The notes under the pieces are model-generated. The model was not told where the DNA came from. It saw only the letters and a list, made by a program, of their open reading frames with translations, and ran no database searches. A stretch of 24,895 nt of DNA, from the NCBI GenBank assembly GCA_943704525.1, contig CALSCQ010001498.1, positions 20,001 through 44,895 on the forward strand, read 5' to 3'. Positions 3,422-21,688 of the stretch are shown piece after piece (the stretch's first letter is position 1; each line of letters begins with the position of its first letter). Origin of the DNA: Pigoraptor vietnamica (lineage: Eukaryota > Opisthokonta > Filasterea). The translations under genes were made by a program, and so were the position numbers.

Positions 3422-5446
3422 ATGGCTCCCATCGGGGTAAGCAGCAGATTGCGATGACGTTGCAACTCTCAATAGGGAGGGTATTAACATTGCATCTCTG
3501 GCCGTGTGCGCAGAAAATCTACACGTACCCCAACAACCCGCGGGTGAACAAGGCGCTGATTGCGGCCCAGTACGCCGGCGTGGAGGTCCAGGTCGTGTCT
3601 TCTGGCGCAGAGTTTACGTATGGCGTGACGAACAAGAGCGAGGCTTTCCTCAAGAAGTTCCCCGTCGGCAAGGTGCGCTGCTGCTGAAGTGCTTGGGCAT
3701 GTGGAAGAAGCGGGCACTGGCGTGCGATCGAATTGACTTTTATCTGAGTGTGGATGCTCATTTTCAAGTCTGATTGGATGTGCGTTTGTGCAGGTGCCTG
3801 CGTTCGAGGGCACGGACGGCACGCTTCTGTTTGAGAGCAACGCGATTGCCTACTACAGTGAGTGTTTGCATCGCCGTCTGATTCGGCCTCCCATTGTGCG
3901 GTTTGGGACTTTGCTCGTGATGATACGAAAACATATCTACAGTTATCCCTGTCCGAGAAAATCGTGCGGAGAAACGTTACATCTGACCCCATCATGTCCC
4001 TACCTTCCGTACTTTTGTTTACGTGTTCGTCGTGCTCCTTTTACTTGCTTAATGTGCGCAACGCGTCATGCAGTTGCTTCGCTCAAGAAGGACGCGAACC
4101 TTCTCGGCAAGAGCGACGTGGAGGCCGCGCAGGTGCAGCAGTTTGTCAACTTTGCGGACCACGAGATCTACCCCGCGTCGTGCACGTGGGTGTACCCCAT
4201 CCTCGGGATCATCAACTTCAACAAGGTTTGTTGAGAGACTGAACTTGTCGCACCTGCGTTACTCGCGTCTATTTTCTGTTACACACTGCTGTGGCACTCT
4301 GACGCGTGGCGCTTGTGAATTGAGCAGCAGGCGAGCGACAAGGCGAAGCAGGACATTGAGCGCGCCCTCGCCGCCCTCAACGAGATTCTCCGCACGCGCA
4401 CCTTCCTCGTGGGCGAGCGCGTGAGCCTTGCTGACATTGTCGTCGCGTCGACCCTCGTTCCGCTGTACGAGAACGTGCTCGATGCCGCGACGCGCAAGCC
4501 CTTCGTGAATGTGAACCGGTGGTTCAACACGCTGATCCACCAGAAGGAGTTCAAGGCCGTGCTCGGCGACTTCAAGCTCGTGGAGACGGCCAAGCAGCCC
4601 CAGCAGCCGGCGAAGGACGAGAAGAAGCCTAAGGAGGAGAAGAAGAAGGAGGAGAAGCCTAAGGAGGAGAAGAAGAAGGAGGAGAAGCCTAAGGAGGAGA
4701 AGAAGCCCGCCAAGAAGGAGGAGGAGGATGACGACGTTGCCGACGAGGAGCGCGAGGCCCCCGCGAAGGACCCCCTCGCCGCCCTTCCCAAGTCGTCGTT
4801 TGACCTCGACGCCTTCAAGCGCGCCTACTCGAACGAGGACACGGTGACGGTCGCCATTCCCCACTTCTGGAAGAACCTGGACAAGGAGGGCTACTCGATC
4901 TGGCGCTGCGACTACAAGTACCCCGAGGAGCTGCAGAAGGTGCGCTCGCGTGCAGTGCGGTCGTTTGCACTGAAGGGCGGAGCGGGCGGTGTTGTTTTTT
5001 GTTATTCAAGCTTGTTTATTTGGTTTGGCTGACGGAAGAGTTTGCGCAGGTCTTCATGACGTGCAACCTCATCGCTGGCTTCTACCAGCGCGTGGAGAAG
5101 CTCCGCAAGTATGCGTTTGCCTCGATGTGCGTGTTTGGCGTTGACAACAACAACCAGATCTCTGGCATCTGGGTCACCAAGGGCAAGGACCTCGTTTTCC
5201 CGGTGCGTCTCCTCTCTGCTGTGGACTTGGAAAGCTCAATTACCTGTTGTATTAGGCGGCGTTCTCATCCCTTTTTATTTCTGCCGTCAGCTTAACGAGG
5301 ACTGGAACGTGGATGCGCCGTCGTACGACTGGAAGCTGCTCGACCCCAACGCCCCCGAGACGGTGACGATGGTCAACGAGTTCCTCGCGTGGGAGGGCAA
5401 GGAGTTTACGGAGCGCAAGTTCAACCAGGGCAAGATCTTCAAGTAA
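3422..5446 (+). CDS. EEF1G: Translation elongation factor 1B gamma subunit
   Basis: The gamma subunit scaffolds the eEF1B nucleotide-exchange complex that recharges eEF1A with GTP. Exons: 3422-3436, 3514-3672, 3794-3857, 4074-4225, 4328-4939, 5050-5202, 5291-5446; phases are consistent and give 436 aa, close to the roughly 437 aa of animal homologues. The start is the short exon MAPIG followed by donor GTAAGC. Residues 1-80 are a thioredoxin-like GST N domain (KIYTYPNNPRVNKAL); 85-205 a helical GST C domain (FLVGERVSLADIVVASTL). Residues 220-270 form a Lys/Glu/Pro linker. About 274-436 is the conserved EF1G C-terminal domain (WKNLDKEGYSIWRCDYKYPE, then ASMCVFGVDNNNQISGIW). It ends KFNQGKIFK before TAA. 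The upstream region is a compact divergent promoter with an E-box palindrome. Codon use is strongly G/C-ending, as expected of a highly expressed gene. Confidence 0.96.
4625..4705 (+). repeat. 30-bp coding minisatellite in the EF1B-gamma linker
   Basis: Two full copies and a partial third of a 30-bp unit (4625-4654, 4655-4684, 4685-4705) are identical at nucleotide level and encode the decapeptide KPKEEKKKEE. The identity, including synonymous positions, points to recent copy-number change rather than old selection on charge alone. Confidence 0.9.
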
Positions 5447-6331: not shown

Positions 6332-8574
6332 ATGAATCGGCGCCAGGATGCGCGCGTGGAACGCGGGTACTTTGAGGCGGACCACCTCTTCAACAGGTGC
6401 GGCTGCGCGCGTGTGCACTCGCCATGTCCTCTTTCTTGCGCCTGCCTTTGTCGCATTTCAAACACTCTGTTTGTGTGTGTCCTTTTTCCACTTGTGAAAG
6501 GGTTCGTTGTTGTTTGGGCTCTTGTCTAGTGGCACCTTCCGCTGTCCCTCGGCGTCCTTTCCGCCGTCCATTTGCGTGTGACATGCCTTCTTGTGTGGCA
6601 TACCCCTCCCCTCTGTGCTCTCTCTCTCTCTCTCCCCGATACACTTTCCTCGCAGCATACCGCTCCCCCTCTGCTATCCCCTTCTTAATATACAAATACA
6701 CATTACTCACCGCACAGTCCCTCCCCCGCAGCGTCTTTCAGTGCCACGAGCGGCAAAAGCACGGCGGCCTCAAGTTCACCGACAACGAGTACCTCCAGCT
6801 GCAGCGCAATGGCGCGTGGGACATTATTAGCACCCTCGGCAACTCGATTCTCGAGGGAAAGGACATTGCGAGCCTCTCGTTCCCCGTCGAGGTGGGCCTG
6901 CGCTTTGGCTTCTCAATGGGGTATCGAAGTCCGCGCCCCTGAATGTTGAACAGCAGTGGAGGACAGGCAACGCTCCCTTGTGGCGCTTGATCCTGCCGTG
7001 ATGTTAATAGTGCCGGGGCTGTTGCGTGCGTGCGTGTGTGTTGCGTTTCGATTGCGATGCTGTGCTGACCGACGTGCCGTGATTGCGTCTCTTCACCGCC
7101 CAGTTCTTTGAGCCTCGCTCCGCACTCGAACGCTTCATGGTCGGCCTGTGCTTTGGTCCGACGTTTCTTGCGGCCGCGTCGCACGAGTCGGACCCCCTTC
7201 GCCGCTTCCAGCTCACGATGTGCTTTGTCGTCGCGGGCCTCCACCTGCTGCCCACGCAGCGCGCCCCGTTCAACCCCATCCTTGGCGAGACGTCGCAGGC
7301 GTCGCTGTCGGACGGCACGAGCGTCTCCCTGGAGCAGATAAGCCACCACCCGCCCGTCTCGGCGGTGTGCGTCACGGCGGCCGACGGCAGCTACGAGATG
7401 CACGGGCAGTTCACGTGGACGGCGAACATCCGGGGCAACGCGATGCGCTCGCAGATGAAGGGGGAGATGCGCGTGGACTTCGCGGACGGCGGACGCATTT
7501 CGTTTGAGCTGCCGACGGTCGCCATCGGCGGCCTCCTGTGGGGCGAGCGCACGTACGACCTCTGCGGCACGGTCGCCTTCAGGTGTGTGGAGAGATGGTG
7601 ATTTGTCGATGTCCCCTCCGTTCGTGTTGCTTCGACCCTTCCCTTGCCGAAGCTTATGGTGTCTCTATCATAAATGTCATTGGTGTCGTCTCTGTGTGCG
7701 TTCGCTCACCCGCCCACGTTCTCCTTTGACGTCCGCAGGGACGAGCAAAACGGGATTGCGTGCGACCTCGTCTTCAACCCGGACTCGAAGCGGTCGTGGC
7801 TCAAGCGCATCTTTCGCATGCGCCGCACCCTCTCACGTGACGCCGTCGCCGGCACCATCTACTACCGCGCCGACCCCCTCAACGACCCGGACGCGATTGC
7901 CTCGTGCGAAGTGTCCGGCAGCTGGCTCTCGAACCTCGAATTTGAAGACTGCGGCGACCTGTGGCGTCTCGGCCGCGAGCGCCCGTCGTCGATCATCCCC
8001 GCCCCAGACCCCCTTCCGTCCGACAGCCGCTATCGCGAGGACATTCAGGCGCTGACGGAGGGCGAGGTCGAGCGCGCGGAGGAGCTCAAGCGGCTGCTCG
8101 AGGAGAGGCAGCGCTACATGGCGCGCCTGCGGAAAGCCGGCGAGCGCGAACGCCAAGTGCGCGCGAAGAAGTCGTCGTCGGGCGGATCGCGCGCCGCCAA
8201 GGCCGTGTCGTTCATCTCAGCTGCTCTGTCGCCGCAGTCGGGCACCGGGTCGCAGTCGCTTGCGGGCAGCGGGCAGCGAAGGTGCGTGTCGGGCGACGGC
8301 TTGTGTTTTTGTGTTTTTTCCAAACTGTCTCTAATTCGCTGCTGTATTTTCGTGTTCTTTTTCTATTTCGTACAGGGGCAAGGACGCCCTCCGCCGCGGC
8401 TCGCTCGATTCCGTGCGCTCTTTCTATAGCGCCCGTTCGCACTTTGGCGAGGGCTCGGTGGCGGACTCTGCGTCTGTCACGAGCCGTTCGCCCCGCAGCG
8501 CTTCGAACGCTTCGATGGGCAAGCCCTCGCGCGCACAGCGACCCACGTCGGGCTCGGTTGCGAGCGGCCGATAG
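6332..8574 (+). CDS. Oxysterol-binding protein-related lipid transfer protein (ORP/Osh family), short form
   Basis: ORP proteins carry sterols and phosphoinositides between membranes at contact sites. Exons: 6332-6396, 6732-6891, 7104-7582, 7739-8281, 8376-8574; 481 aa. The family signature EQISHHPP is at residues 152-159, preceded by PFNPILGE (130-137) and the lid/entry motif FFEPRSALERF (76-86). The ligand-binding barrel runs to about residue 300, followed by EVSGSWLSNLEFEDCGDLWR. A charged helix (about 325-370, ERAEELKRLLEERQRYM) and a Ser/Arg-rich tail close the protein. There is no PH domain, ankyrin repeat or transmembrane segment in this model, so it resembles compact Osh4-type members. 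The start ATG 6332 begins MNRRQDARVERGYFEAD; the first intron (335 nt) is the longest in the window and has a CT repeat near 6619-6636. The next gene is convergent. Confidence 0.93.
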
Positions 8575-8989: not shown

Positions 8990-11900
8990 TCACGCGGCTC
9001 GCTTGGACCCGGCGGGGAACTTGCGACCGGAAACATACTTCCGCAGCGCCAGCGTGTCCTTGTGCTTGTCGCCCAGCAACCGCCGCCGCATCTCAAGCGC
9101 CCGCTCCAGGTTCACCCTCGCCTCCTCGTAGTCACGTGCCTGGTACTGGGACGAGCCCAGGAGGGACAGGAGCGTCGCAAGCTCGGGGCTCTCGTGCACC
9201 TTCGACCCGTCAGCGCGGTGCCCGTCGGCCAAGGCGCGCTCGGTCGCACGCACGCTTCTGGCAAAGTAATCCGCGGCTGCGTATGCATCGCCAAAGGCAA
9301 GGTACGCGCGCCCGAGGTTCGTCGACGCGCGTATGACTCGGTCGTCCGGAACGCCGTCAACCGCAAACGCGTTCCCCTTCGCCTCCAGCGCCCCGAGGAT
9401 GCGCTCGCGTGTCTCGAGCGTGCGCTTCAGCAGCCCAAGCGCCTCTTCCGCGACCGAGCTCGACACCCGAGACCCCTTCGGTGCCGTGCGCACGAGCAAG
9501 ACGCCGAGGCCACTGCACGCGTCCGCCACAGCGAGCGCCAGCGAATCGTCCGTCACTCGCCGCCCGCCGCCCTCCTTCCCCGCAAAGCGCGACGGCCCAG
9601 CGTCACGTGCCGCCTCGGCCGCGGACAGCGTGCGTCGCAATGTCTGGACGGCTTCGTCGAGGCGTCCTGCAATTTCCTGCGCCACGGCGAGGTTCGCAAG
9701 CGCCGTGACGGTCGCCGGGTGTCCCTTCCCAAGCACCTTCTCGCGCAGTTCGACGGCCTTCTGGTGAGCCGCAATCGCCTCGCCCGGCTTGCCCGCCATC
9801 ACGAGGCAGGCGCCAATGTCGTTCAGTGTCGTCGCGACCTCCGCGTGATCGCTGCCGAGCATGCCCTCTCGGCACTTGAGCGCACGCCGGTGGTAATCGA
9901 CCGCGGTGGCGTAGTCGCGCACGCGTCCAGACAGAACGGCGAGGTTGTCGCACGCGGCCGCGATGCCCGCGGGGTCGTCGAGCGCCTCGAACGACTTAAG
10001 CGCCGTTTTGATAAAGTTGAAAGCAATGTCGACGGGATTATCCGAGTGCTCGCTCTGCTTGCCCTCCTTGTCCACGGCGTTTCCCGTGAACACAACACTC
10101 ACGCGGCGCCCAAACACGACGATGGAACTCGCGACGCGCGCGACGGCACCACCTTTACCCTTCTTGTGCCCGTCGTGCTCGTCCTCGTGGCTGTCGCCGA
10201 CAGTGGACACGCGGGCAATGGCCACGCCGAGGTGAAGGTGGGCGACGGCGACCTCGCGGTGGGAAGGGCCAAGGCGCTGTTTGAGTAGTTCGAGACACCG
10301 CTCGAGAATGGGCACGGCCAGCGCAAATTGGTGGTGGCGCATGCGTGCGCCAGCAATGAGTCTGCAGAGTGCGTGGATGGAAAGATGAGCGACACATCAC
10401 TCTGAGGAACGCATATCGTTCGCGAGTGCTATGACGCATGCAAGGGCACAAAGGGTTAAGACAGCGGCGGACCTGCAAGACTCGACGACGGTCGGGTGGG
10501 TGCTGCCCAGGACGGCCTCGCGAATGCCCAGCGCGCGCTCGTAGAAGGTGATCGCGTCGTCGGTATGGCCCAAGTGGGACTGAAGGTGACCGATGGCCTG
10601 GAGTAACAGAGGCGGAATTTGGTCAGCAGCTATATGCAACGGCCACTGCCTGTCTGATCCGCGCGTGCATGTTACTGGCAGAACGAACAACGCACTCGCA
10701 CGCACACACACACACGCGCGCGCACTCACTCCACTCCCGCAACACAGGCGTCCATTATACGCGCGCCGCCATTAAGAGCCCCACACGCCCACACTCTACT
10801 CCCCCAACACAAGCGTCCCATACAACACCCCGTCAATCAACAGCAGCTCACCTCGCACGTGCACGCGACTTCCACGTGGTCCAGGCCCAGAAGGTGCTCT
10901 TGCACATCGAGCGCGCGCTCCGTCGTGTGCAGCGCATCCTCGTGCCGTCCCTGCGCCGCTTGCGCCGCGCCCAGCAATCGCAGCGTTGAAAAGAGCGCCG
11001 CGCGCGGGTTTCCGGCGGGCACCGTAGTCGAGGTAACACTCACTGCGCTCTTCGATTCTTCCCGCATTCCGCCGGGACTGTCCAGAATGTCCAGCGCCAC
11101 GCCGTGCCACTTGGACGCCTCGGCGTGCCGTCCTGACGCCCACTGCAGAAGTCCCAGTCGGTTGCACGCGTCCGCGTACGCCGGGTGCTTGCGCCCGACC
11201 TTGTCGTCAACAAGCTTGAGCGAGAGCTCTGCAAGCGGCAGCGCGCTGCCAGCAGAGCCCAAGTCGCTCACAAGAATGGCGGCGCGGCCGAGGAGGTCCG
11301 GACCAGCGCCCCCATCCTCCGAGAGGCCCTTCTTGAGCAGCGTCGCCATTTCGTCGCCGGACGCGCCCGTCACGCGCCACAATTGCCGCAGCGAGTGGCG
11401 GTCGGTGGCGAGAATGCGCTCGAGCACCAGCTTGCGCGCGAGCACCGTGCGAAGCTCACCGGTGCGCCCCAATCGGAGGAGCAGCCACGGCAGCTCGTCC
11501 GCAACCCGCCTCCTGTCCCGGTCGCTCCCAGTGCCCAGCAGACCGAGAAAGTACGCCGCGAGCTTCCCGAGGGGGGCCGACGCGCGATCACGGAGAGGCT
11601 TTCCAGCAAGCGCCGCCTTCAGGTCGTCGCCGTGCGTGCCCGCGAGCAAGTGCGCACCGGCGGCATCTTCGGCGCCGAGCCCAACCATCTCGAGCGCGAG
11701 GCTGCGATGTCGCGCGATGAGATGTCCCGAAGTGGTGCTCACGACGTGGCCGTCCGCAAGCAGCGCCGACAGAACAGCGCCCCATACGGTACGGTCGACC
11801 CCGAGCGCCGCGCGAACTTCCTCCGCAGCCAGTCCCATGCGACTGCCGGCCACCATCACGAGCGCGTCCGTGAGCGGGTCCTCGCCCGCGCCGACGCTGC

Positions 11901-13325
11901 TGTCGAGCCCGCGTCGGTGCTCCGCCGCGCTGCGATCGACGTTTGCCGCGTACAGCGCCACCTCGTCCATCGTCCCCACCGACTCGACGGACGACGGCCT
12001 CGCGGCCGACGCCTCCGCGCCCTTTGGCGGGAGCACGAGACGCACGGCCAGCTGCATCTTGCGGGGCAGACGCAGGCGACCGGCGAGGTAATTGAGCTGC
12101 GCCGTGGAGAGAGTGGCGTCTGAGGCGGCTTTTGCGGTCAAGAGAGCCATCGTTCCCGCGTCGCGGTCGGAGAGCGGCGAGATGAACATTTCGCGCGCCT
12201 TTGCGCGAAAACCGGCGCGCTCCATGACGTCCTTCCAAGAGCCGGGAGAGGCGGAGAAGACAAAGCGGCACGACGACAGCGCGCCTGCGTGCGGCACGGA
12301 GAGTCAGACACGTGCAGCACACATTGACGACACGGGAAATTCGCAGTACAGCCACTCCGCAATCCATCTTCCCCCCATGCACGCGACTCTGCAGCGCACA
12401 GCCTGCAACGCGGATTCAACCGTTCTCGAATAATGCACGCGCGTTGGCGCTTGAGGGCACACTCACCGGCAGGAAGCCACGAGTGGAACGGCGGACGGCA
12501 CTCGAGCCTGTCGAGACCGTCAATGACGCACGTGACATTGAGTCCCCTCTCGCGCGCTCGCAGCAGCAGCTCGGCGGCCTTGTCGCGAAGGCGATCGTGC
12601 TCCGACGGCGGATCGAATCGCGTCGAGATGCCCAGCGCGGCTGACAGGGCCTTGGACAGGCGTGCCAGCACGCTCGCGGGCGCGTGGCTGCGACCATTGC
12701 ACCCGACAAAGTGGTAGAAGAGCACGGCGTCCGACGCCATCGCCGCCTTTCGCCGTCGCACAAACTCGGCCAGAAGGCGCGACTTGCCCGCGCCCCTCTC
12801 GCCCGTCACAATCACGGGGCAAGGGGCCGCCATGGCCTCGTCAAGCACAGAGAGATGCGTGTCCATGCCGACGGGCCCCTGCTCGCTCGCCCCCGTCGCC
12901 AGCGCCTCCAAGAGTGCCTCGTGTGCCGCCCCTTCGACTTCGTAGTCGATGGCGGACGCGGGCCGCGACAGCGCTCGGTTCGAACCCACGGGCCGCGCGG
13001 TGAGCGACGCCCGCGAGAGCGACGCGCCCAACAAGTTCGGTTGCGACGGCGCACGCGCGGTTTCTTCCGCCTGCGGGGGCTCCTCGCTCTCTTCGACAGC
13101 CTGTTTCACTGCGCGATCGTAGTCGCGATCAATGTCCAGCGCCGCGAGTTCCGCCGACACGTCCAGCGACTGCTCCACCGCACTAATGCCCGGCACGTCC
13201 TCATGCGCGACGACGGGAAAGGCTGCGCCATGCGACGACGAGGCCGCAATGGCGCCATCGATTTCGTCCGACCCCTCCTCTTGGGGAGGGCTCGGCGGTG
13301 TCTGTGGGTCGGGTGTTTCCGACAT
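8990..13325 (-). CDS. STAND-type P-loop NTPase with C-terminal TPR array, nephrocystin-3-like
   Basis: Exons (minus): 13325-12467, 12284-10852, 10597-10473, 10361-8990; 1262 aa with consistent phases. The start MSETPDPQTPP is the ATG at 13325; an upstream in-frame GTG-initiated extension looks like UTR. Residues 1-130 are acidic and low-complexity. Walker A is GERGAGKS (175-182), Walker B VTCVIDGLD (264-272), followed across intron 1 by HSWLPAG and RFVFSASPG. This is the order seen in NACHT/STAND and nephrocystin-3 ATPases. A winged-helix-like segment occupies about 424-486 (GLAAEEVRAALGVDRTVW). From about 620 to 1245 lie roughly ten kinesin-light-chain-type TPRs (ALGIREAVLGSTHPTV, ALKCREGMLGSDHAEV, AVELREKVLGKGHPAT). 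STAND proteins are oligomerising switches in signalling or defence; nephrocystin-3 acts at cilia. Which role applies cannot be read from sequence. The tandem TPRs could also be read as a kinesin light chain, but the NTPase argues against that. Confidence 0.88.
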
Positions 13326-16353: not shown

Positions 16354-19300
16354 TCAGAGGTCGCTGATGCGCGCGATGCCGTCGTCACCGCTGCGCCGCC
16401 GCACAATCTCGGTGTGCCTCTGGGTCTCCGCGCGCATCTTGCGGACGAAATCGAGGCTGTCGATCCACTTCCTCATCGCCTCTGCATCGTGCGCCTGCAA
16501 GTAGTACTCGCTGCGAAGGAATTGCGGCATCGTCGGTGTGTGAGGGACAGACACGGACACACAACACTGGCACGGCAAGTCGCCTTAACCGCAAAACGAC
16601 GTGAAGGGAGACACGGAGATGCACGCACCACAACACAGCATTCATGGGGCGATCGTACAGCACAGCAATTGACCAACACACAGCGTCCTTGGAGCACAAC
16701 AGAACAGGCGGCGTGGATGGACACACACCGGCCAGGCACCGACACGATGAAAGTGGCGTGGTTCTTGTCCTGCTCTGCGTCGGGGACGACTACAATGCCC
16801 GTAATCTTGTCAATGTCGATGAACCTGCGCCGAAGGAACGGAAAGGCGCCGTCAGACGCATTCGGAAACATTGCACCTGCAACCGCACGCACACCAACTC
16901 TCACACGCTAAACAACATAGCATAACGTACACACACTGATCACAACGCATGTCGTGTCGGCACCCACCCGTACGGCTCCGATCCGCGGTGCGTGCCGTAG
17001 TAGTAGAGGCGGTTCCCGAGGTCCGTCGCAAACCACCGCCGCTTCCACAGCTTGATCGGCGGCCGATCGCCGCGCTTGTAGAGCCACCCCTTGAGCTGCG
17101 TGGGAGACACCGTTGAGCGATATGGGCGCAGGAGGGGGGAGGGGGGTCCACACATGCGACCATTGAGTCGCAACAAAGAATTACATTAAAAGAAAAGAAC
17201 AACCACAGCACAACGAAATGCCGTGCCACGTGACCCACATCCATGCGTGCGACGGCCTCGCGCCGCTCCATCTCGAGGTTGTGCTCCTCGCCCCTTGATC
17301 GCTCGAGCTCGGCCGTGAGCCCCGAGATGGTCGCATGGAGGCGCGCCACGGTCTGCCTCAGATCCTGCAACAAGTCATCGTGGAATGAACAACAGGAGTG
17401 CCTGCGAATTGTATGCGTGCCAATGTGTTGTGGGTGTGCGTGTCCGTGTGCGTGTCCGTGTGCGTGTCCGTGTGAATGTGTGAATGACGCGTGAGTGCGT
17501 GCGCGTGCATGTGTGTGTGTGTGTGCATGTGTGTGTGTGTGTGTGTGTGCGTGTGTGTTCAGCGCAAGAGAGCATACGACGCACCCGCACTTCCTCCTCC
17601 AGCTCCTCAATGCGCGCGTCCTTTCGATCATTCTCAGCATCAAGGTCCGATTTTGACTTCTTGTGCTTCTTGGCGGAAGTGCTGCGACAAACAACACAGC
17701 AAGCCATTAAGGGACGGAACTCACAACGCGCAGACTGAATAGTGGTGTGATTTGTTAGATGCACACAATGACACACACGACACACACAAGGGACTCACTC
17801 TTCGCGCGGCTGTGCGGGCTGCTTCGCCGGCGACATTCCGGGGCTCGTCGTCGCCGAGTTCGACGCAGACGTTGCCGCCGCTGCGGGCAAGTTCTCGTTG
17901 CTGTTTCGCCTGAAAAACTTGAGGTTCGAAAAGAACGACGTCGACTTCTTCTCCTCATGCACAACAGCCGTCGACGCTGTTGACGGCGCTGCAGGGGCAG
18001 GCGCAGGGGCTGCCGTCGCCGACACCGCACTCGAGGGCGCTGCAGATGACGCGACCGCAGACCCGACGTTGAGGCTGGACCCGGACGCGCGCCTCGTGAC
18101 AGCATGCTCCGTGTAGGGCACGGGCGGCGGAGGTGGCGGTGCGCGACCCGACCCCGTCGACGCAGACGAATCTGCGGCGCTTCCGACGGACGCGGCACTG
18201 GACGACGCCGACTGGCCGCCCCGCGCGCTCTCCGACCCGACGACGTCTGGAGCCCAGCGCACGTGGTGGGTGCCCGTGGGCGACGCCGTTGCCGACGAGC
18301 TTGTGGTCGTGGGCGTGACAGAGGGAAACGACACCGTCCCCGCCGTGGCCATGGCGGGCGGCGGTGCGGTCATGAGGCCGGGGCCAGTGAGGGACAGCCG
18401 CTTCGCAATCGCGGCCACTTGGCCCGGCGCGGCGCCGCTGGCTTCGGGAACCGGCGGCGCTGACACCGGGCGCGAAGGCGACGAGTTGCCCGATCCGCCC
18501 GCGGAGGACGGCTTGTCGCCCACGCGCGAGAAGGAGATCGATGACGCGATCGGCTGCTGCGACGGAGGGCCGAGGGATGCGGCAATGGCGGCGGACCGCG
18601 CAGACATGGGTGGCGCGCCGGTGCCCTGTACCGTGTCGCCCTTCACGGGGGCGAAGACGCCTGGGGCGCCGCGGGACAGTTCGCCCGTCTGCGTGGCGCG
18701 GTCAAAGTAAGAGGGGGAGTCGGAGCGCGAGCCCGGGGCCACAGGTGACGCGCCGGGAAACATTGCCTGGCTTCGCAGTGTTGCTGGTGTGTCGCCAATG
18801 CCGTACTCCTCGTCCACTTCTGCGATGACATCGTTCCTGAGGCGGGGGAGGAGCAAAAGCGTAAGGCCATAAAAGGGGAGCAAGGGTGGGAAAAAGGGAT
18901 AAATCGCGAAAACTGTCGCACGCACATTGGCAACAACTTTGTGCATGTGTGAGATGAGAGCCGCTCAGGAGAGGCCATCACACCCACTTCTCCCTTTCCT
19001 CTTCGTCGTCGCTGTCGTTTGCCTGGCTTGCGCGGCTGAACGTGCTCATCATGTCGTCGTCACTGCACGAACGAAGGATTGAGACGAGAAACAAGACGAT
19101 TCGGCCTTGTCTGGACTACATGGAACACGAGGGTGCGACTACACGCATGCACGCGCGCGCACACACACACACACACACGCACGCACGCACGCACGCACAC
19201 GCACACGCACACGCACACACGCACACAACACACAGCCACCCACGTCGCATTTCCCTGCTTCAAGAACTCGCACGCAATCGTCACTTCCATGTCGGCCGAG

Positions 19301-20253
19301 GTGACCGTCTTGCGGACGGGGCGCGCAGGCAGCCGCTCGCGCCGCGTGGACATCGAAAGCGACGCGTACGACGCCAAGTCCGTCGAGTGGAAGGCAAGCA
19401 CGGAGCCCTTCGACGACGCGCGCGTCTGTTTGCAGCACAAGGCGATTCAGACACCATAATACAGAGCGAACAAGGGACAGCGAATGGCACTGGCATGTTT
19501 CACATCGTAACAGGCGGTTATCACGGCACAAAACGCACACACGCACGCACAGGCGCATGTAAACAACCCACGTCCTCAATGGCGAACTTGTACTCCTTCT
19601 TCTCGAATGTGTTTGTCTTCGAATCCTGCGCGAACGAAAGTGCCGCGATAATATATAGAAGCCGTCAGGGACTGAGCACCAACAGCGCCCTTAACTGCAA
19701 CACATTTCAGACGCGACACAAAATAGAGTTCGGGCGCACCTTATAGAGGGTGACGACCATTTCGAGCACTTCGTCCCCAAAGCTGGCGATGGAGCGATAG
19801 GCGCCGTCGGCGGGCGTCGTTTCCCATTGTGATTTCTGCGGGACAATTGACAGCGCGCGTGAACGGGGGCGCGTTGAGCGTTGAAATCGCACAGAATGCT
19901 CGAGGCAAGACACACTCGATCAGACCGTACTCGGACCGGTTTGCTCACATTCTTCGTGTGGCAACTGCGCGCACCGCGGCTCATCGACACGCACGGCGGT
20001 CCGACAGCGAGATCCTTCCTGTTTTGCGGAACACAGACAACGCATGAGCAGTGTCGCAAGGGAATCAAGTCGCACGCACGCACCGGGACACTCCACGCGC
20101 ATGCTCGCGCACTATTCACGCGCTGCATGGCGTGCACAGCGAGAGGGAAAGGGCTACGCACTCGTCGTGTCGAATGGTGGCGGCGTGGATCGTCGCAAAG
20201 AATTTGAACTTGAAGGCGGCCTTGCCGAGGTGCATGTGCACGCCGAAACGCAT
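16354..20253 (-). CDS. NT-C2 (EHBP1/EEIG1-type) protein with coiled coil and C-terminal PH domain
   Basis: Exons (minus): 20253-20162, 20018-19949, 19835-19740, 19625-19572, 19425-19244, 19062-18988, 18836-17799, 17681-17585, 17364-17239, 17095-16968, 16824-16729, 16510-16354; 736 aa, all phases consistent. Residues 1-165 form an NT-C2 domain: KAAFKFKFFATIHAAT, EVLEMVVTLYK, FEKKEYKFAIED, then STDLASYAS and MEVTIACEFLKQGNATDDDM. The last part parallels EHBP1 closely. Residues 190-535 are Ser/Pro/Ala-rich and probably disordered. About 545-610 is coiled coil (KDARIEELEEEVR, HATISGLTAELERSRG). The PH domain (609-706) runs from LKGWLYKRGDRPPIKLWKRR to FIVSVPGREYYLQAHDAEAM and WIDSL. NT-C2 domains act at membranes in endocytic traffic and actin linkage, and PH domains bind phosphoinositides, so a membrane adaptor is likely. 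Unlike EHBP1 I see no CH or bMERB domain. Exon 2 (70 nt) and the exon 11 borders were decided by phase and domain fit. The start could also be the Met at 20235. Confidence 0.85.
17434..17558. repeat. GT-rich simple repeats in intron 8 of the NT-C2/PH gene
   Basis: Three perfect 12-bp units GTGTGCGTGTCC (17434-17469) are followed by TG runs around 17511-17525 and 17529-17549. On the sense (minus) strand of the gene they read as CA/GGACAC repeats. They fill most of the 220-nt intron (17365-17584). Confidence 0.9.
19151..19230. repeat. CA/CACG simple repeats in intron 5 of the NT-C2/PH gene
   Basis: GC, AC, ACGC and ACACGC repeats succeed each other on the plus strand inside the 181-nt intron 19063-19243. 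On the sense strand this is TG-rich. The mixed units suggest stepwise expansion. Confidence 0.9.
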
Positions 20254-20683
20254 CCTCGGACGATCGCAGCAGGCGACAACGTCGACCACACGAGGAGCCC
20301 CGCACTTTATGCGCCAGCGCGGGTTCCCGCGCCGCAAGTCCGGTGCTCTCAACACAACTGTGACACAGACATAAAGAGGCACCGGCCGCAAGCAGTCACG
20401 TGATCGATATGTTGCAAGCCAACGTGACGTCATGCTGACGTGTTCGGTATGAAACAGTTTTGCGCGCATGTCGGCGGGGAACACAGAAGTCGCGAGCGTA
20501 TCACCCCGGATGCAACCGAATACCGACACACACACTCATACACGCACACGCGTGCCGAGTCAGTCATTGGCTGAACTAGAACCTGGTTCATTGCCTTTAG
20601 CTACTTGAAGCGTATCCAATCGAATCTACTGCGTCGGTTCGGTGGGCGCGAGTGCGGTTGGGTCGGGCACAACCATGTCCGCA
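20254..20683. promoter_or_regulatory. Upstream region of the NT-C2/PH gene with E-box and CRE-like sites
   Basis: This spacer carries TCACGTGA at 20396-20403, a full CRE TGACGTCA at 20425-20432 and a half-site TGACGTG at 20436-20442, about 145-190 bp upstream of the start codon of the minus-strand gene. It also contains the left inverted repeat of the 20.5-21.6 kb unit (20502-20520). Confidence 0.5.
20502..20520 (+). repeat. Left copy of an imperfect 19-bp inverted repeat flanking the gene at 20684-21526
   Basis: CACCCCGGATGCA (20502-20514) is perfectly inverted at 21573-21585; with two mismatches the match extends to 19 bp (17 of 19). The two copies face each other across about 1.08 kb that contains a single intronless gene. 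No matching target-site duplication is visible outside them. Confidence 0.6.
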
Positions 20684-21526
20684 TCAGTTCAGCACGACCC
20701 AGCCCACCTTGTACCGGTCGCACATGTGCTTCACAAGGCACTCGTATTCGTGCGACAAGCCGAAGATCGGCACGGCCAACATCATGTCCGCCGTGTTTTT
20801 CGACCGCTCCACGACGTCCTGGTCGGAGACAGAGGCCAATATCAAGCCCATGCTCTCGTACCGCACCCGGTGCACGTCGGTCGAGAGGTGCGAGTGCAAG
20901 TCGCAGACGATACTCGCAATCGACTCGATAATTGCCTTGACGCGACCCATGTCGCCGTTACGCAGCGCAACGACGAGCTCATCGCTCTTGTTGAGGCACG
21001 CCGCAAACTGCTTGAGCATGCCGGCACCCCATTCCTCGTCGTGCAATTGGCCGCGCCCGTCCCTGTCGAGCAACTCCGTCCAAAGCTCCCTGCGGCCCAC
21101 AGTTTGCACGGGAGGGTAGCGAGCCCGCAGCAGGTGTTCAAGCTCCTCGATCACGCCGCGACAGTGCAACTTGTGGACGCTCTGGAGGTATTGCCCTTTC
21201 GCGCTCTTCAAAGATGATTCCAGCAGCGCGATTTTCGAGTCGCGCTCACTACGAAAGGCCGCGAGCGCGCCGTCCTTCGCCACGACCGCGGCGTTCGCAG
21301 CCGCGAGCGCCCTTTCAAGCGCGACCAAATGTGGATTCACGATGGACAGTACAGGGCCCAAAAGCGCCGGCTTGTTCTTGAGGACGACGCTGAGGGCGGG
21401 GGCGCAGTTCTTCGGCAACTCAGCGTCGGGGACGCTCGCGAACCGTCGGACGGGCGCGGCGGGCATCACGCGAGCTCGAGCATGGGCGGCGTAAGCAACG
21501 GCTCGCTTGCACGCGGTGCTGTACAT
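20684..21526 (-). CDS. Intronless gene of unknown function, possible mitochondrial presequence and coiled coil
   Basis: A 280-aa ORF starts at the ATG at 21526 (MYSTACKRAVAYAAHARARV) and is uninterrupted, in contrast to its intron-rich neighbours. I do not recognise the family. The first 30-35 residues are rich in Arg, Ala and Ser without acids and run into PVRRFASVPD, which resembles a mitochondrial targeting peptide with an RRFAS-type cleavage region. Residues about 75-115 (LERALAAANAAVVAKDGALA and ESSLKSAKGQYLQSVHKLH) have heptad spacing suggesting a coiled coil. Helical segments follow, such as RGVIEELEHLLRARYPP and ACLNKSDELVVALRNGDMGR, then a C-terminal part ending DRYKVGWVVLN. No catalytic motif, zinc site or membrane helix stands out. 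It lies between inverted repeats (20502-20520 and 21567-21585), so it may belong to a mobile or duplicated unit. Confidence 0.65.
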   Translation of the reverse strand: MYSTACKRAVAYAAHARARVMPAAPVRRFASVPDAELPKNCAPALSVVLKNKPALLGPVLSIVNPHLVALERALAAANAAVVAKDGALAAFRSERDSKIALLESSLKSAKGQYLQSVHKLHCRGVIEELEHLLRARYPPVQTVGRRELWTELLDRDGRGQLHDEEWGAGMLKQFAACLNKSDELVVALRNGDMGRVKAIIESIASIVCDLHSHLSTDVHRVRYESMGLILASVSDQDVVERSKNTADMMLAVPIFGLSHEYECLVKHMCDRYKVGWVVLN

Positions 21527-21566
21527 TTTCTGCGGGCTGCTGACAGTAACTGGCACCGTTTCTCAG

Positions 21567-21585
21567 TTCTGGTGCATCCGGGGTG
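21567..21585 (-). repeat. Right copy of the imperfect 19-bp inverted repeat
   Basis: TGCATCCGGGGTG (21573-21585) is the exact reverse complement of 20502-20514. It lies 47-59 bp upstream of the start codon of the enclosed minus-strand gene and overlaps a local hairpin. Confidence 0.6.
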
Positions 21586-21601
21586 TGGGGTACCCCGGAT
21601 G
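21575..21601. promoter_or_regulatory. 10-bp perfect inverted repeat (hairpin) upstream of the unknown gene
   Basis: CATCCGGGGT (21575-21584) and ACCCCGGATG (21592-21601) are perfect complements around a 7-nt spacer, with an inner GGGGTACCCC palindrome. It sits about 50-75 bp upstream of the ATG at 21526. It could be an operator-like dimer site, or part of the terminal structure of an inserted unit. Confidence 0.55.
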
Positions 21602-21688
21602 GATGACTTCAAGCCAAAGTATCCCAACCAATGATATTGCATCTCGACGTGACGCCGTTTTGCGACGACTCCCAAGCTGTGGCAGCTT

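Follow-up and report, generated by a model that had tools for sequence, protein, structure and literature searches.

The arms of a short inverted repeat around an uninterrupted reading frame in Pigoraptor vietnamica are probably two copies of a dispersed promoter-type motif

The window, a stretch of 24,895 nucleotides of Pigoraptor vietnamica DNA, carries an inverted repeat whose two arms enclose a single uninterrupted reading frame, which we call ORF280. The features of this region are the following.

16958-17113, minus strand: weak PH-domain exon (PF00169, E 1.4e-4, 22.7 bits, below the Pfam cut-off of 25.1), taken as part of the same gene as NT-C2
19244-20253, minus strand: first five predicted exons of the NT-C2 gene (PF10358, E 9.7e-15; exons joined and splice sites read by eye)
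20502-20520, plus strand: left arm, with motif copy 1, CACCCCGGATGCA, at 20502-20514, 249 bp upstream of the NT-C2 ATG at 20253
20684-21526, minus strand: ORF280, an uninterrupted frame of 280 amino acids, member of a gene family found at six places
21567-21585, minus strand: right arm, with motif copy 2 at 21573-21585, where the minus strand reads CACCCCGGATGCA; this 13-mer starts 47 bp upstream of the ORF280 ATG (21526)
21592-21601, plus strand: motif copy 3, the core ACCCCGGATG, outside the 1,084-bp block and forming a close inverted pair with copy 2

Given the distances of 249 and 47 bp, each arm lies upstream of a gene start, the two genes following one another on the minus strand, and the third copy is found just beyond the right arm. 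The left-hand neighbour has the domain of the NT-C2 (EEIG1/EHBP1) genes, whereas ORF280 itself has no Pfam family. The stretch that separates the left arm from the start of the NT-C2 gene contains further palindromic words, CACGTG at 20397 and TGACGTCA at 20425, and a CCAAT word is found at 21628, on the upstream side of ORF280. A nine-base match, CCCCGGATG, at 7427 falls within the coding part of an oxysterol-binding-protein gene and was left out of the motif copies. In another part of the window, coding segments on the minus strand at 8990-13325 have a NACHT/AAA-type ATPase part and tetratricopeptide repeats; they resemble nephrocystin-3 and are probably one gene.

The first-pass annotation had described a perfect 13-bp inverted repeat extending to 17 of 19 positions, and both coordinates and matches were confirmed: the arms at 20502-20520 and 21567-21585 are complementary at 17 of 19 nucleotides (89%); within them, 20502-20514 reads as the 13-mer CACCCCGGATGCA, and 21573-21585 is its perfect complement. 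The absence of a target-site duplication was confirmed as well, as the sequences immediately outside the two arms do not form an exact direct repeat of any length from 2 to 8 bp. We then asked how often such a repeat is expected. When low-complexity words are excluded, the window contains three pairs of perfect 13-bp inverted repeats whose members are no more than 2 kb apart. One hundred simulated windows, generated by a first-order Markov model from the dinucleotide frequencies of the window, had a mean of 2.06 such pairs and a maximum of 8, and at least three pairs were present in 33 of them. As a repeat alone, the 13-bp inverted repeat is not beyond chance in the window.

The enclosed frame had been described as a single uninterrupted ORF of unknown family, and this stands: the 280-codon frame is unbroken and profile searches gave no family. 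No Pfam match was found up to an E-value of 10 and no NCBIfam match up to 1, and the best hits were at E 0.087 against PHROGs and E 0.49 against PDB sequences. The predicted structure is a long helix followed by a small C-terminal domain, modelled with modest confidence (pLDDT 70.8, pTM 0.55); its best fold matches had E-values of 1.8 in the PDB and 2.2 among viral folds. A second model, restricted to the C-terminal 107 residues, reached a pLDDT of 66.8 and was judged too weak for a fold search. ORF280 is without a family or fold match among the curated profiles and solved structures searched. Its codon use is coding-like, and the overlapping plus-strand ORFs score lower for codon bias. The dN/dS ratios of the window copy, 0.56 and 0.61 for two pieces compared with the relative on contig C516 and 0.77 compared with that on C789, show that constraint is present but weak. 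ORF280 is probably an ordinary protein-coding gene. The first 33 residues of the protein contain six Arg or Lys and no acidic residue, and an RRF motif occupies the same N-terminal place in the relatives on C789 and C217; this N-terminus would resemble a mitochondrial targeting peptide. The product is probably a coiled-coil protein, with import into mitochondria suggested by the N-terminus. A viral or bacterial origin was considered and rejected, within the limited reach of the scans: no relative was found in viral contigs by single-protein and alignment scans, or in prokaryote genomes by an alignment scan.

The argument for a regulatory nature of the arms begins with the abundance of their word in the 32.5-Mb genome. 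CACCCCGGATGCA occurs in 47 exact copies, against none for the reversed control word; allowing one mismatch, the numbers are 323 and 19, and for the core ACCCCGGATG they are 649 and 11. A second-order Markov model predicts about 1.3 copies of the 13-mer and 36 of the core (the model was built from 184 kb of fetched, partly overlapping DNA, in which the 13-mers were masked together with the 30 bases flanking them on either side). The core was delimited from the variants. Of 276 one-mismatch copies, 53 were listed, and 35 of these 53 differ, by our own count, in the last two bases, so that the core is approximately ACCCCGGATG. The fuller form can be written (C)ACCCCGGATG(CA) and is found in either orientation. 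Among the 47 exact copies there is no common flank: over 40 bases before and 60 after the word, no column exceeds 50% agreement. The gain from 13 to 17 of 19 matching positions in the window therefore means little. The ends of transposons would have adjoining sequence in common, whereas binding sites need not. Some clustering is apparent, as the 46 loci that hold the 47 copies contain seven additional CCCCGGATG words no more than 150 bp from a copy and one at a greater distance, and the reversed control word does not occur in the same loci.

Other words accompany the motif. Within 150 bp of it, in the loci of 66 sites, TATAAA was found 10 times against 1.7 expected and ACCAAT 11 times against 2.4, an enrichment that is only a hint given that promoter composition differs from that of the rest. 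The companion words near the sites are mostly A+T-rich and simple. Runs of CT/GA are also enriched over the same distance (AGAGAG, 77 against 20). Literature searches for ACCCCGGAT as a whole word and for CACCCCGGATGCA anywhere returned no match; among the papers listed for CCCCGGATG none was about such a motif by its title, and the listings of broader searches did not show the motif as described. To our knowledge, the word does not correspond to any known binding site.

The position of the motif relative to genes was analysed in two sets of sites: 46 of the 47 13-mer sites (the two arms of the window counting once, without a separate entry for the left one) and 20 further core sites, drawn from among the first 100 in the list of places. 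Coding-like segments were called from codon bias only, with a score trained on the long frames of the fetched DNA. The coding-like share falls to 0.17 in the bin of the site, compared with 0.39-0.54 at 1-1.4 kb, in the 13-mer set, and to 0.18, compared with 0.26-0.45, in the second set; G+C content also dips at the sites. Twelve of the 66 sites lie inside coding-like segments (7/46 and 5/20). As a control we used 52 kb that had not been chosen by motif, made up of the window plus four loci with gene relatives and containing five ACCCCGGATG sites; here 1263 of 2497 positions (51%) are inside coding-like segments. The neighbouring segments point away from the site, which is thus upstream of them, on 76 of 95 flanks (54/69 and 22/26; p 3e-9 against an even split), compared with 1170 of 2304 control flanks (51%) in the same 52 kb. 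None of the 42 fully flanked sites is located between converging genes (control, 286 of 1127 positions), and 24 are located between diverging genes (control, 354 of 1127). Since the control was sampled every 20 bp and its positions are not independent, we put the weight on proportions. A first control, random positions within the motif-centred loci, differed much less from the sites (segments facing away in 1154 of 1681 cases), as expected for loci centred on promoters. Inside coding-like segments this control had 838 of 1840 positions for the first set and 318 of 800 for the second; avoidance of coding sequence is significant against it in the first set (p 3e-5) but not in the second (5/20 against 318/800, p 0.25).

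According to these results, the arms are very probably two copies of a dispersed promoter-type motif, each upstream of one of two successive genes. The first-pass annotation had named shared regulatory sites as a caveat, and this turned out to be the best fit to the excess of the motif, the lack of common flanks and the location of the sites upstream of genes. The motif (C)ACCCCGGATG(CA) would most likely be bound by a sequence-specific DNA-binding protein; the left-arm copy may serve the promoter of the NT-C2 gene, and the right-arm copy, together with the third copy, that of ORF280, with a presumed effect on transcription. The inverted repeat around ORF280 is then incidental: the motif is found in both orientations, and here two promoters in a row carry copies that face opposite ways. 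Like the dispersed promoter motifs of sequence-specific transcription factors, the motif is a short fixed word with hundreds of copies in both orientations; these cluster to some extent, and most of them avoid coding-like sequence and lie upstream of genes. The motif differs from those of such factors in that the literature listings gave no described motif to which the word could be matched.

What kind of factor would bind the motif can be considered from the genes that it adjoins. Of the 58 coding segments listed for motif-linked genes, 56 were scanned against Pfam; ORF280 was among them, whereas its relative on C516 and a plus-strand segment of the window were left out. Among the 25 of 46 Pfam families listed, no common function emerges: PH is found in 2 of the 56 segments and each other listed family in one. 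This functional mixture among the listed families, together with the share of sites between diverging genes noted above (24/42 against 354/1127), would fit a factor that organises chromatin or sets boundaries where promoters diverge, rather than a regulator of a specific pathway. Such a factor, which would act in the manner of the yeast general regulatory factors, is a particular case of the promoter-motif explanation and compatible with it; divergent spacing alone, however, cannot separate the two readings, and we regard this one as a tentative and less likely possibility.

Relatives of ORF280 are found at five other places, on contigs C516, C789, C217, C1289 and C787, with an additional 3' remnant on C1086. 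The frame is open throughout in two of the six copies, those of the window and of C789; in C516, C217, C1289 and C787 it is broken by shifts or stops, through decay or assembly error. The copies on C789, C787 and C217 are closer to one another and have about 90 bp upstream in common, and C789 and C787 share, on the 3' side, some 560 bp of homology past the coding part, without a core word. These homologies represent duplicated stretches, not units bounded by arms. The motif is near the start in only one of the five relatives (C516, where the 13-mer is about 155 bp upstream of the ATG) and is therefore not a conserved feature of the family. On C217, a 13-mer is located, by our own count, about 190 bp upstream of the first ATG of a frame with MORN repeats, and a second motif site is at L061:1803. 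The relative on C787 adjoins a 941-codon minus-strand frame (L063, 1-2823), repeat-rich and, by eye, parallel-helix-repeat-like. The family is small and fast-evolving, and no relative was found outside this genome among the viral contigs and prokaryote genomes scanned.

Spread of ORF280 by retroposition would explain its lack of introns. Indeed, no member has an intron-sized gap in the protein match, and downstream of the C789 copy there is a run of almost 80 A (L060, about 4054-4131). However, this run looks like a local expansion, or else is a feature of the assembly: the C787 duplicate has the same A-rich spot, short and without a long run, and the homology between the two copies continues beyond it. 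No intron-bearing parent gene with matching exon joints was seen. We consider retroposition unlikely, because C787 and C789 are homologous beyond the A run.

Even less probable is pure coincidence, in which the arms would be two unrelated occurrences of a 13-mer without regulatory meaning. Such pairs are expected about twice in the window, which fits this reading, but the word is about 36 times more frequent than the second-order Markov expectation and is located preferentially upstream of genes.

A small non-autonomous DNA transposon with terminal inverted repeats of 13-19 bp and ORF280 as a passenger, as the first-pass annotation had suggested, recalls a MITE or small TIR transposon in having a perfect 13-bp inverted repeat around a short block with a single frame, and in the scattering of the family over six contigs, but is highly improbable: the block 20502-21585 is present in one full copy in the genome searched, the four other matches covering the coding part only (query 187-1029), no core-word pair surrounds any of the five relatives in the DNA fetched, the C789/C787 homology runs past the coding part, no 2-8 bp target duplication abuts the arms, and the 47 arm-word copies have no common flank. 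An element ending at the arms was rejected on these grounds. The annotation had called for a genome search for several copies of the block ending at the repeats, and that search returned the single full copy. Its other suggestion, a dispersed gene family that moves as a unit, is retained in part: a dispersed family of unknown kind does exist, with five relatives, whereas a unit that ends at the repeats is not supported, as only the coding part matches.

Altogether, finding a perfect 13-bp inverted repeat within 25 kb of sequence says little in favour of a transposon, and a false mobile element is here replaced by a testable, genome-wide candidate cis-regulatory word. We speculate, with due reserve, that ACCCCGGATG may be the means by which an undescribed DNA-binding factor marks about 600 promoters, with many divergent ones among them, and that this factor might act as a genome-wide organiser of promoters like the yeast general regulatory factors. 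The candidate motif would be a new item and gives a handle on the control of transcription in this eukaryote.
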